IMG/VR virus record: IMGVR_UViG_3300043411_001777
Location: 1 to 25,967 of that record
Strand: one strand, 5' to 3'
DNA: 25,967 bases
Source of the DNA: a virus
A program made the translations under genes and the position numbers. Shown one piece after another: positions 4,431 to 20,380 of this stretch (position 1 is the first letter of the stretch; each line of letters starts with the position of its first letter). The notes beneath the pieces were generated by a model that saw only the letters and a list, made by a program, of their open reading frames with translations, did not search any database and had not been told where the DNA came from.

Positions 4431-4615
4431 GAACAAACCCTTAGTAGTTGAGACAGGCCGATGCAACACAAGCTTACAGCTTGAAGCAATACCAACTTCC
4501 GTAAGAACCGGACCCGGTCATAGACCGTGGTGAATGAGTCGATTGTCTTATCCCGAAGCTCTGCGTAAGCCTTACGCAGAGCTTCCAGCTCTTCTTGGAC
4601 ATCTTCCGGTTTCAT
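4427..4615 (-). CDS. small protein with coiled coil and possible membrane segment
   Basis: The ATG at 4613-4615 gives a 62-residue protein starting MKPEDVQEELEALRKAYAEL and forms ATGA with the stop of the RNA ligase gene upstream. Residues 1-30 are a charged amphipathic helix; residues about 37-58 (LVLLQAVSLCCIGLSQLL) are hydrophobic and could be one transmembrane helix. A coiled coil followed by a C-terminal hydrophobic helix is typical of small phage spanin- or tail-anchor-like proteins, but no specific family is recognised. Confidence 0.65.
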   Translation of the reverse strand: MKPEDVQEELEALRKAYAELRDKTIDSFTTVYDRVRFLRKLVLLQAVSLCCIGLSQLLRVCS

Positions 4616-5592
4616 GACTTCGCCAAATACCCATTGCCCACACACTTCAATGCGAGCCGGCCGATTTCAGGGTTGTAGCCCTCATTTACGGCTGTGATGA
4701 CGCACCCCTCTCGCACCTGAGTCGGGAACAGGACGGACTTGCCCTCAGCAAGCGCCTCCACATTCGCATCGCCAAGCCGCCCCTTGTAAAGCAAGGGCAC
4801 GCGACGGTCCTCAGGGACCAAAGCCGTGAATTCATCGTAATTCAAATACGCAAGCCGGTCGAGAGAGAACCCGTAGAACAGCCGCAACTGAGGCTTAGCC
4901 GCATTCAAACCATACTGGAACTTCTTCTGCGTACCGTAAACCTCGCCGTAGAAGACCACATCCGGGTTTGCCTTGCAAAGCTCGACAATCCAGGGGTTGT
5001 TCTTGGCAAAGAGCCACCACTCTCCCGCCCCTTCCTTAAGCCACTGGGTGCGGCTGCCGCACCACATCTTGCCGTCTCGAAAGGCGAAAGCACCCGACTT
5101 GCCGTTGATCTTTTCGGTGATCTGAACCTCAAGGTCTGGAGAGACCTTGTTCTTGTTCTTCTGCCAATTCTCCAGGTTGGAACGTGGTGCCAAGCCAAGC
5201 TTTAGCTCGGGATCTGGCACAATTTCATCAGGATTGGGTGGCCCGTCATCCACATATCGGATGATTCCGAGGCGCTCCATTACGTCATCGCCCTCGGCAA
5301 CACCCGTCAACTCGGGAATGTCCGAGAGCGGGATTAGGCACCCAGGAGAAAAGACCCCCCGCAGCTTCTTTACCCGGACCTTTCGATCGGGCTCAAGCGC
5401 AGGCATCCACGAAACGCCCTCAGGGATGATGTAATCAGGCTCGACGAAAACCGCAAGGTCGCCGGGTTTCCAATGGGCCAAGCCCACAACGAGGGTATAG
5501 CCGCTGACGACAGTTAGTCCGAGGCTAACAGTCTCGGGGTCAGGATGGGGGGAAATCTCACCGATTCGAACAACTCGTACTTCATGCTTCAT
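4612..5592 (-). CDS. RNA ligase, Rnl5 (Deinococcus DRB0094-like) type
   Basis: A 326-residue ATP-dependent RNA ligase. The N-terminal ~110 residues (VRVVRIGEISPHPDPE, then WKPGDLAVFVEPDYIIPEG) match the OB-like module typical of the Deinococcus radiodurans Rnl family. The nucleotidyltransferase domain follows: motif I K161-I-N-G with the adenylated lysine, RTQ after CGS near 181, a motif III-like FYGEVYG with E217, motif IV REGCVI at 294-299, and motif V LALKCVG with K316. Enzymes of this family seal 3'-OH/5'-phosphate nicks in RNA duplexes or RNA-DNA hybrids. All catalytic elements appear intact. It is translated from the same coupled string as a 57-residue Cys-rich protein and a release-factor-like protein, suggesting repair of cleaved tRNA or rRNA; that substrate is inference. 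Confidence 0.88.
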   Translation of the reverse strand: MKHEVRVVRIGEISPHPDPETVSLGLTVVSGYTLVVGLAHWKPGDLAVFVEPDYIIPEGVSWMPALEPDRKVRVKKLRGVFSPGCLIPLSDIPELTGVAEGDDVMERLGIIRYVDDGPPNPDEIVPDPELKLGLAPRSNLENWQKNKNKVSPDLEVQITEKINGKSGAFAFRDGKMWCGSRTQWLKEGAGEWWLFAKNNPWIVELCKANPDVVFYGEVYGTQKKFQYGLNAAKPQLRLFYGFSLDRLAYLNYDEFTALVPEDRRVPLLYKGRLGDANVEALAEGKSVLFPTQVREGCVITAVNEGYNPEIGRLALKCVGNGYLAKS

Positions 5593-5755
5593 CTATCAAG
5601 TCCTTTAGCATCCAACGAGGCCACACAATACGATGGCCGTAGCAATCGCTACGATCGCAGAACCCGCAGTTGCCACCAGTAAAGGGGCCATTGTACAGCT
5701 TGCGAAGCTTTGCGCTATCCTTTTCGGATAGGAGAACCTGTTCCTCAGTGCTCAT
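5582..5755 (-). CDS. small Cys-rich protein, 57 aa
   Basis: A short frame that fills the 159-base gap between the release-factor-like gene and the RNA ligase. The ATG at 5753-5755 overlaps the upstream stop as ATGA, and the TGA at 5582-5584 lies 11 bases inside the ligase gene. The protein starts MSTEEQVLLSEKDSAKLRKL and continues with a charged N-terminal helix, then GGNCGFCDRSDCYGH, giving CxxC plus a further Cys and His that could hold one zinc, and ends WPRWMLKDLIDEA. Coupling on both sides strongly supports translation. No family is recognised; a partner or adaptor of its neighbours is a guess. Confidence 0.75.
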   Translation of the reverse strand: MSTEEQVLLSEKDSAKLRKLYNGPFTGGNCGFCDRSDCYGHRIVWPRWMLKDLIDEA

Positions 5756-6297
5756 GGTGTCTCCGAGTTAGGGAAAACCCCGAGGTGGGTTAGCAAATCC
5801 TCCGTTTCGACACAATCGAAATTGTGACTGGCCATCAGCTCAATCCAGTTGACAAGCACAGGATCCATGTTCTGGGCGTTCAGCTTGGCGGAAAGGTTTT
5901 CGAGAGTCTTGTTCTTAACAAGAACACCCAACGTCTTAGTTTCCAAGTAAGCCCGGATATCGGGCTCCAGGACCCGGTCGGCATCAGCGTCTTCCACTTC
6001 CGCCAAACGGGGCTTGAAACTCCTGGCCACAACCTTTTGGATTACGTCAAACGTAACTGGTTTGGGAGCCTCTGGCGAGGCCCACATAATGGGAACCTCA
6101 GGCGGAATGAGTTGTTCCGCTAACCGGACTTGCAGTGCTGCCAAAGCCTTTTCACGGTTTTGACGGGCCGTGCGCTCATCGTGAGATGAGCTTACCAGTC
6201 CTGTTGGCTTGTGTACCACACGCACACCGCGACCATTCTGGTTTACACCCTGGCCCGGCGCGCGGTAACTTGTGAAAAGTAGGTCTTCCTCGTTCAT
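5752..6297 (-). CDS. release-factor-like protein (RF-1 domain) with PGQ in place of GGQ
   Basis: Residues about 5-62 match the class I release factor catalytic domain: SYRAPGQGVNQNGRGVRVVH, then PTGLVSSSHDERTARQNREK and ALAALQVRLAE, compared with the family pattern G-G-Q-x-V-N...AVR-x-x-H-x-P-T-G...eRsq..N...A...L..rL. The catalytic GGQ that reaches the peptidyl transferase centre reads P-G-Q here, and the loop before it is shorter by about three residues. The stop-codon recognition domains are absent, as in ArfB and PrfH ribosome-rescue factors. Residues 63-181 form an unrecognised C-terminal domain instead of the short basic tail of ArfB. The ATG forms ATGA with the upstream gene, fixing the start. 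It lies two genes upstream of the Rnl5-type RNA ligase. The domain assignment is strong; peptide-release activity is doubtful. Confidence 0.8.
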   Translation of the reverse strand: MNEEDLLFTSYRAPGQGVNQNGRGVRVVHKPTGLVSSSHDERTARQNREKALAALQVRLAEQLIPPEVPIMWASPEAPKPVTFDVIQKVVARSFKPRLAEVEDADADRVLEPDIRAYLETKTLGVLVKNKTLENLSAKLNAQNMDPVLVNWIELMASHNFDCVETEDLLTHLGVFPNSETP

Positions 6298-6647
6298 CGA
6301 CAGATCCTCTTATAGAGGGCCAGCACATTTTCCAATGTGGCTTCCTCAACAGTGAGCCAATTATTGTGCCCACCCACGTAATCTTTGATTCCGTTACAGG
6401 AACGGACTAGCACTCCCAGCTCACTACCCGGGGTCTGGTCGAAATTAGCACTGACGTACATCTTATCCGTATGGAAAGAGGCTTCGCCCCAATCCCCGCA
6501 CGGGTTGTAATGCAGTGTGTACTGCGACTTTTCGAGCCCCAGCTCTTTGGCTAGGGCTCGAAAAAACTTGAAAGCGGCCGCCTTGCATCCATTGGGCTGG
6601 ACGGAAGACTTGGTTGGAACACCACCAAAAGGGAGTGTCAGCGCCAA
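6294..6647 (-). CDS. hypothetical protein, 117 aa
   Basis: A 117-residue protein that starts at a TTG with GAGG seven bases upstream and ends in an ATGA overlap with the release-factor-like gene. The sequence (SQYTLHYNPCGDWGEASFHTD, split over strands) suggests a small alpha/beta domain. I recognise no motif. It is the first gene of the tightly coupled set that runs into the RNA ligase, so it may work with them, but the sequence does not show how. Confidence 0.7.
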   Translation of the reverse strand: MALTLPFGGVPTKSSVQPNGCKAAAFKFFRALAKELGLEKSQYTLHYNPCGDWGEASFHTDKMYVSANFDQTPGSELGVLVRSCNGIKDYVGGHNNWLTVEEATLENVLALYKRICR

Positions 6648-16167: not shown

Positions 16168-16782
16168 TCATTCCTCCAATTCGCGAGCCAAACCTCGCAA
16201 TTCTACCGAGATCAGGTCGGCCAGGTATTTGGACTGCATAGTTTCGCTTCCAGTGGAAGCCTTAATTTGGGCCAACTCCAGAAACAAATGACGATGCCCC
16301 ACCGTCTCATCGTACTGCTTCTTTTTGAAGGCCATAGTCGCCTGGTGTAGGGTCCGCAGGTTATGCAGTCGGTCAGCTCCCTTAACCAAGAGAGCACCGA
16401 ACGTCCCGAACTTGATCAGACGATCGTAAAACCCTTCCTTGGGAAGCTTGGACACGAGCTTCGTATCGCGAACCACATTCGCGCCGAAAAGGTGCTCGAT
16501 CATCTCCGGCGAGACCCGAGTATCCTCCAGCGTATCGTGCAGCAGTGCAGCGATAATCAGGTCCGCATTCTGGACACACAGCTCGTCCAACAGAATGATC
16601 GCAACCGCACGCGGATGGTCGAAATAGCGAATCGGATTACCCGACTCATCCACTTCAGATCGAGTCTGATAGCGATGAGCGCTCTTTGCGAGCTGATAGG
16701 CGATTCGGACTCGCATTAGGTCCGAAGGAGCCATCCACGGCTCAATTCGAGCAAAGAAGGTGTTGTGGGTTTCAGTAGTCAT
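16168..16782 (-). CDS. Mesh1/SpoT-type HD hydrolase (alarmone hydrolase-like)
   Basis: A 204-residue stand-alone HD hydrolase of the RelA/SpoT type. Visible residues in family order: AHRYQTR at 35-41 (H36), YFDHPRAV at 53-60 (H56), ALLHDTLEDT at 79-88 (H82, D83, E86, D87) and GADRLHNLRTL at 135-145 (D137, N141). These are the manganese ligands and catalytic pair of (p)ppGpp 3'-pyrophosphohydrolases such as Mesh1. The synthetase and regulatory domains of SpoT are absent. In a phage it could remove (p)ppGpp or related pyrophosphorylated nucleotides made by starvation or toxSAS-type defence; the substrate is inference. It may alternatively act on NADPH, as reported for Mesh1. It is followed without gap by the tandem paralogue pair. 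Confidence 0.9.
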   Translation of the reverse strand: MTTETHNTFFARIEPWMAPSDLMRVRIAYQLAKSAHRYQTRSEVDESGNPIRYFDHPRAVAIILLDELCVQNADLIIAALLHDTLEDTRVSPEMIEHLFGANVVRDTKLVSKLPKEGFYDRLIKFGTFGALLVKGADRLHNLRTLHQATMAFKKKQYDETVGHRHLFLELAQIKASTGSETMQSKYLADLISVELRGLARELEE

Positions 16783-19498: not shown

Positions 19499-20380
19499 TC
19501 ACACACCCTTTGTTAAGAACTTTTCGACCAACCGGTCATTCAATCGTGTCAAGAATTCCGGACCAAAGGCCCCATTGGTCTCCAGTCCCTCTATAGACCA
19601 CGGGGGCAGGGTATCCTTAGCCCTCGGGGCGAGAATTCCTAACGTGATAGCAGCTACACTGTCTGTATCCCCACCCCAAGCGATGATCTGCCACAAGGCA
19701 TCCAACGTATCGGGTTCATCTTTGATGATGTTCCACACGGCCTGTACGGTTTTGAACCCAACCCGAGGCCCCACAACGGGGGGCCACACAGGGTCTAGTA
19801 TCTCACCCACCCATTCTGGGTGCAGATGCTTGTAGAGGAAATAGGGCAGGTTGTAGAACGGCTCTGAGGTGTGTATGGCGAAATGAGCCATCAACGCAAC
19901 AGTCTGTGCGGACAGAATCCCGTCCCGAGTATCGTGCGTGATCTTTGCGTGCTCTTCGGACACGCGTAGGATTTGGGCTGGGTCTGATAAAAACCCAACT
20001 GGCACTGAGCGCATGGCGGCGCCGTTCTTGTCTGAATGGGGCTTTAGAGCCGCGATAAGTCCCGCTCCAGAGCGGACTCCCTCCAAGACCTTTTGGAAAC
20101 CACGAGAATACCCTTTACGAGGATCACGGTGAAAGCAGCGCACGAAACTGTCCGCAAAAGCAGCTTTTGACCAATCGTCTCCAAGTAGGACTTCAGCGAC
20201 GGAAATTGACATTTGAGTATCGTCACTGTAAGCTCCTGGCTTGAGAGGGTATTTCGGATGGGCTAGATAGCCCTTAAAAAGCAAAGCATCCCGAATCAGG
20301 TCGGGATCGTCAGAAACGTATTCCGTAGCAAGGGCTATTGCATCACCAATAGCGATCCGCAACAGGATTTCAGAATTCAA
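19499..20380 (-). CDS. ADP-ribosylglycohydrolase (DraG/ARH family)
   Basis: A 293-residue protein with the family's motifs: IAIGDAIAL at the start (typical G-D-A-x-G), YSDDTQMS at 51-58 with the metal-binding D53-D54-T55, NGAAMRSVPVGF at 119-130, THDTRDGI and WGGDTDS at 235-241 with D238 and D240. Family enzymes remove ADP-ribose from proteins or nucleic acids, releasing it with the help of two magnesium ions. The start is a TTG in a TTGA overlap with the upstream gene, and the core motif begins a few residues later as expected. A phage copy could reverse host ADP-ribosylation or counter an ADP-ribosylating defence toxin; target unknown. Confidence 0.93.
   Translation of the reverse strand: MNSEILLRIAIGDAIALATEYVSDDPDLIRDALLFKGYLAHPKYPLKPGAYSDDTQMSISVAEVLLGDDWSKAAFADSFVRCFHRDPRKGYSRGFQKVLEGVRSGAGLIAALKPHSDKNGAAMRSVPVGFLSDPAQILRVSEEHAKITHDTRDGILSAQTVALMAHFAIHTSEPFYNLPYFLYKHLHPEWVGEILDPVWPPVVGPRVGFKTVQAVWNIIKDEPDTLDALWQIIAWGGDTDSVAAITLGILAPRAKDTLPPWSIEGLETNGAFGPEFLTRLNDRLVEKFLTKGV

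Follow-up and report, generated by a model that had tools for sequence, protein, structure and literature searches.

A release-factor-like phage protein with a broken catalytic loop, and the recurrent absence of GGQ from phage RF-1 domains

The window analysed here (25,967 nucleotides, the first 26 kb of the 206,089-bp IMG/VR virus record IMGVR_UViG_3300043411_001777) contains, at the position first assigned to it and on the minus strand, a complete open reading frame (5752..6297), uninterrupted from its ATG to its TGA, for a release-factor-like protein of 181 amino acids, P0001. An AGAGGA resembling a ribosome-binding site can be read upstream of its ATG (6305..6310, minus strand), and the gene lies within a string of overlapping minus-strand genes. 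Its start forms an ATGA overlap with an upstream ORF of 117 amino acids (6294..6647), and its end forms another with a 57-aa Cys-rich ORF (5582..5755) that carries a CxxCx4CxxH motif and has no Pfam match. This small ORF overlaps by 11 nt the start of a downstream gene (4612..5592) whose product combines an RNA ligase domain (PF09414; RNA_ligase E = 2.6e-14) with a PHA02142 OB-fold (E = 4.9e-6).

The class I release-factor domain that had been proposed from the letters of this gene was recovered by profile and structural comparisons. Residues 3-62 match Pfam PF00472 (RF-1) with E = 4.2e-11 and 43.2 bits, exceeding the gathering cut-off of 35, and by this standard P0001 is an RF-1-domain protein; the match spans positions 9-72 of the 116 in the model, and nothing else in the 206,089-bp record matches RF-1. 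P0001 also matches PHROG 20323 (E = 4.6e-10), and a search of PDB sequences returned RF1, RF2 and PrfH chains. An AlphaFold2 model built with 34 sequences from the window and IMG/VR has a confident RF core, except for the loop (pLDDT of 91-97 for most of residues 1-60), and superimposes on domain 3 of ribosome-bound RF1, RF2 and PrfH at about 2 Å over about 65 residues; residues 1-65 (6103..6297, minus strand) are predicted to form the strand-loop-two strands-helix core. In the 34-sequence alignment, the H, P, T and G of the HKPTG motif (H29-G33; 6199..6213, minus strand) are invariant, as are R42 and N47 of RTARQNR (6154..6174, minus strand), the counterpart of RSQxxNK; P0001 has the residues common to all RF domains (H29, P31, T32, G33, R42 and N47), with RTA in place of the near-universal RSQ (SQ to TA).

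The GGQ motif is considered a universal feature of functional release factors. The catalytic loop of P0001 reads RAPGQGVN (6241..6264, minus strand), three residues shorter than RxSGxGGQxVN, and has PGQ at 6250-6258. The GGQ columns of the 34-sequence alignment are occupied by Pro, Gly and Gln in P0001; an alternative alignment has a gap at the first GGQ glycine, with PGG deleted and Ser changed to Pro. As judged from these alignments, Gln and the Gly preceding it are retained, and what has been lost is the first glycine together with three loop residues. The distance from the conserved Asp to HxPTG is 23 residues in P0001, versus 26 in 54 of the 69 GGQ-bearing domains of the census described below, in which the shortest spacing for any complete GGQ domain is 25. 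A check for an intact GGQ at another place in the protein, which would have spoken against the earlier note, found none in the 181 residues. The note was therefore correct in describing PGQ for GGQ within a shortened loop, with the nuance that Gly-Gln survives.

Beyond the RF-1 domain, residues 66-181 (5755..6102, minus strand) form an acidic extension (pI 4.6; 11 K/R vs. 19 D/E) that is predicted to be mostly helical; its single-sequence model, at a pLDDT of 42, is too poor to use. Searches of Pfam, PDB sequences and structures returned no match to it, and neither a codon-recognition domain nor an ArfB-like basic tail was detected, in keeping with the suggestion that a domain of about 120 residues and no detectable relative stands where these elements would usually be. 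No whole-protein relative was found by tblastn in INPHARED, nor any homologue when IMG/VR was scanned with patterns for the full length, the N terminus, the loop and the RTA motif, or in GTDB genomes, all of these searches possibly omitting near-identical records; P0001 is thus a singleton, from one assembled record. The only match to the loop pattern (L008) was attributed to chance, as it runs antisense to a portal-like gene.

If P0001 belonged to one of the known release-factor families, the features that define that family should be present, and this is not what we find: by those features, P0001 is not RF1/RF2, PrfH or ArfB. It resembles domain 3 of RF1/RF2 in its core fold and in the HxPTG and R..N motifs, and its best NCBIfam scores are to these two factors (prfA, 40.5 bits vs. 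a cut-off of 423; prfB, 39.3 vs. 370), but it differs from them in lacking GGQ, the codon-recognition domain and the N-terminal domain, and in having a shorter loop and a different C-terminal domain. With PrfH (29.8 bits vs. a cut-off of 166.65) it shares the RF domain and a gene string that includes an RNA ligase; however, PrfH has both GGQ and an N-terminal domain, P0001 has neither, and the partner of PrfH is RtcB (in the RtcB2 operon), whereas the ligase near P0001 belongs to PF09414. ArfB/YaeJ likewise has an RF domain without a codon-recognition domain, but it bears GGQ and a basic C-terminal tail where P0001 is GGQ-less and ends in a part with a pI of 4.6. In architecture P0001 is also like the small phage RF-1 proteins (PHROG 20323 and 3122), which have the same short core, covering about the first 70 of the 116 Pfam positions, in which GGQ is similarly lost or replaced, and which have an extra C-terminal part or none. 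The C-terminal domain of P0001 is unrelated to theirs, and in most of them Gln has become Met, Trp, Phe or Leu, or a Trp lies adjacent, whereas P0001 keeps Gln and has its loop cut.

Loss of GGQ is not peculiar to P0001, as alignments of other phage RF-1-domain proteins indicate, a point that the earlier note did not make. In a census that was blind to the loop, in which IMG/VR was scanned for HxPTG, eight residues, and R[ST]Q-xx-NK, GGQ was found in 71 of 80 loci and was absent from the other nine, which represent seven distinct sequences. Among phage genome records, GGQ-less versions occurred in most of the phage groups examined: RF-1 proteins of Acinetobacter Straboviridae have RRW, SNW, TCM or TTW where GGQ belongs; Septimatrevirus 73 (Pseudomonas phage 73) has SAW; three Vibrio phages (L022, L030 and L032) have LGQWSMQ or LGNWSMQ loops; Agrobacterium phage OLIVR5 has SGL; Skulduggery has GGF, this protein and that of Acj9 falling under the Pfam cut-off; and all nine Otagovirus-type sequences have GGM. 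Across the census and the genome records, TGM was a further replacement, alongside GGM. GGQ is kept in Mycobacterium phages, in Boevelstad and in a 485-kb phage. Of 21 aligned GGQ-less domains, 20, the exception being P0001, have Met, Trp, Phe or Leu in the place of Gln or beside it. The core H, P, T/S, G, R/K, S/T, N and K/R are largely retained. Trp at or next to this position recurs across several phage lineages. In Acinetobacter Straboviridae (L006, L023, L025 and L031), the RF-1-domain genes adjoin phage tRNA genes.

With its RF-1 core, its lack of GGQ and its place in a phage genome, P0001 belongs to a grouping proposed here, the GGQ-less phage RF-1-domain proteins, which probably do not form a single clade. 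A tree inferred without the loop (90 domains, 56 columns) requires seven changes of GGQ state (bootstrap 6-8), but with so few columns the strongly supported branches force just two of these changes, which leaves the count of losses uncertain. The tree places P0001, with weak support, near full-length GGQ release factors and apart from the larger GGQ-less groups. That a GGQ-less phage RF domain can be maintained for function is indicated by the Otagovirus lineage, whose RF domain is under clear purifying selection, with dN/dS values of about 0.05-0.31 in those comparisons that allowed measurement. A segment corresponding to the L7/L12 C-terminal domain scored above the Pfam cut-off in the three Otagovirus-type proteins tested, pointing to a link between the GGM proteins and the ribosome. 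These proteins, from Otagovirus and Pyxpy phages (L019:798-1277, L020:795-1271 and L002:1501-1989), are annotated as 'peptide chain release factor 1'.

Non-catalytic relatives of release factors have been described outside this setting. For the archaeo-eukaryotic type, Burroughs and Aravind (PMC6514570) describe inactive proteins that bind the A site, a role accepted for Dom34 and proposed for baeRF-1, and they also treat MRPS35 as an inactive relative of the bacterial type. All three lack the catalytic Gln and are reported or suggested to be parts or ligands of the ribosome with no catalytic role; however, Dom34 and baeRF-1 have the archaeo-eukaryotic fold, which is unrelated to that of P0001, MRPS35 is mitochondrial, and the word 'phage' is absent from the text of that article. 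Our search of the open-access literature turned up no paper that describes phage release factors lacking GGQ.

The consequences of breaking the loop can be anticipated from published mutants. Both glycines of GGQ adopt torsion angles that are open only to glycine, and any mutation of either is stated to abolish release (PMC5799190); GAQ release factors remain locked on ribosomes, according to work cited in PMC6742477; and, in our structural comparison, structures were available of RF1 GGD and GGS mutants in the ribosomal A site. Given the glycine-mutant data, the locking of GAQ factors and the retention of the residues shared by RF domains, binding without release is the most likely property of P0001, which would be hydrolysis-dead and able to dock on the ribosome. 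The earlier suggestion of A-site binding without release is in this way partly supported by the broken loop and the conserved RF core, its second half, the failure to release, being drawn from mutants of other proteins.

Because P0001 has neither a codon-recognition domain nor a basic tail, its targeting must come from its C-terminal part or from a partner. In the model that we favor, P0001 would be a class I catalytic domain, equivalent to RF domain 3, whose fold and rRNA-facing residues are kept but whose ability to hydrolyze peptidyl-tRNA is gone. Its acidic C-terminal domain, and not a stop codon or contacts in the mRNA channel, would steer it to the A site of the 50S subunit, close to the peptidyl-transferase center (PTC), where it would leave the peptidyl-tRNA uncut and retain or occupy the ribosomes of the infected host. 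Where ribosomes have stalled or been damaged, it might serve as a placeholder that does not release the peptide, working with the RNA ligase encoded in its gene string; alternatively, it might slow host translation. A decoy or blocker, as first envisaged, is one of several possible uses. That a phage protein can bind the host 50S early in infection is established for phiKZ014, at another site (PMC10914614). For the best explanation, that P0001 is a hydrolysis-dead RF domain predicted to bind the 50S A site or PTC and to act on host ribosomes, we regard the case as evenly balanced: hydrolysis loss, ribosome binding and biological role are what we infer for P0001, and several observations weigh against them, namely that P0001 still has its Gln and one Gly, in contrast to almost every other GGQ-less phage version, that RSQ has become RTA, that the protein is a singleton with a low-confidence C-terminal model, and that the ligase neighborhood is absent from the other phages tested.

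An alternative that we consider unlikely, though deserving of attention, is that the RF fold now serves to bind RNA without entering the PTC. It might, for instance, deliver fragments of rRNA or tRNA to the ligase of the gene string, after the manner of the PrfH/RtcB2 repair pair with a ligase of another family. The overlapping gene string with its ligase is consistent with this, as are a second RNA ligase, a P-loop kinase-like protein and a CCA/poly(A)-polymerase-like protein elsewhere in the phage; prfH-rtcB2 operons repair cleaved 16S rRNA (PMC9223846), and an RF-1 gene adjoins an RtcB-like ligase in a mycobacterial prophage. Yet the neighboring ligase is not RtcB, the PrfH N-terminal domain is absent and the PrfH score far below its cut-off, and the RF-1/ligase pairing was not found in other phage records tested. 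In those phages the ligases lie far from RF-1, and adjacency of the two genes was rejected as a general rule; a search with the RNA ligase identified one 298-kb phage that has a related ligase and is without any RF-1 gene, and no kin phages were found via DNA polymerase.

Because P0001 retains Gln and one Gly, some residual activity is possible, and in a further alternative it would still be a peptidyl-tRNA hydrolase, presenting Gly-Gln from a shorter loop with altered geometry, perhaps on an altered or damaged ribosome. The surviving GQ, unlike the loops of most GGQ-less phage versions, and the weakly supported place of P0001 near full-length GGQ factors speak for this, but the loop is shorter than in every complete GGQ domain of the census, Pro cannot meet the glycine geometry of published structures (PMC5799190), and there is no codon-recognition domain or basic tail for positioning, making such activity quite improbable. 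Least probable is a recent accident, whether gene decay or an assembly or sequencing error that removed nine bases from a normal GGQ loop: for all that a single record is known and no independent copy was found in INPHARED, IMG/VR or GTDB, the change is in frame with the reading frame open on both sides, the gene has ATGA overlaps with its neighbors and a third-position GC (0.58) like that of other genes of the window (0.54-0.66 in neighboring genes), and GGQ has been lost repeatedly elsewhere in phages, one of the lineages concerned being under purifying selection.

Returning to a hydrolysis-dead ribosome ligand as the preferred reading, its plausible setting, from gene context, is RNA repair and translation maintenance, since the record encodes a peptide deformylase, the two RNA ligases, and the kinase-like and CCA/poly(A)-polymerase-like proteins; RecA and an HD_4 protein are also encoded. 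The genes for the P-loop (AAA_33) kinase-like protein and the tRNA nucleotidyltransferase (CCA)/poly(A)-polymerase-like enzyme lie near one another (G000:C1:194617-195099 and 195538-196764, minus strand), and with the two ligases their products suggest an RNA-repair set. No tRNA genes were found in the 206,089-bp record, and a role for P0001 with phage tRNAs was rejected on this account.

More broadly, phages may repeatedly have turned RF catalytic domains into hydrolysis-dead ribosome ligands, keeping the core and adding lineage-specific domains, with P0001 an independently derived case that has a new C-terminal domain and an RNA-repair string; we advance this view tentatively and think it somewhat more apt to fail than to hold. 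Many of these GGQ-less proteins carry the annotation 'peptide chain release factor', which is misleading if phage RF domains bind the PTC without release. If true, phages would also be a source of natural, separately evolved dead-RF ligands for studies of termination, ribosome rescue and host take-over, and the recurrent loss of GGQ from a maintained core can be addressed in cultured Acinetobacter Lazarusvirus, Pseudomonas Otagovirus and phage 73.

Two further features of the phage lie apart from P0001. Genes for an HD_4 domain protein, an ADP-ribosylglycohydrolase and a NADAR protein (window positions 16168-16782 and 19499-20380, and G000:C1:73602-74354) possibly serve counter-defence involving nucleotide signals and ADP-ribose. 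The phage also encodes a TnpB/OrfB_IS605-type protein (G000:C1:42983-44248, minus strand; L009:17984-19249) that combines OrfB_IS605 with a Cas12f1-like TNB domain.
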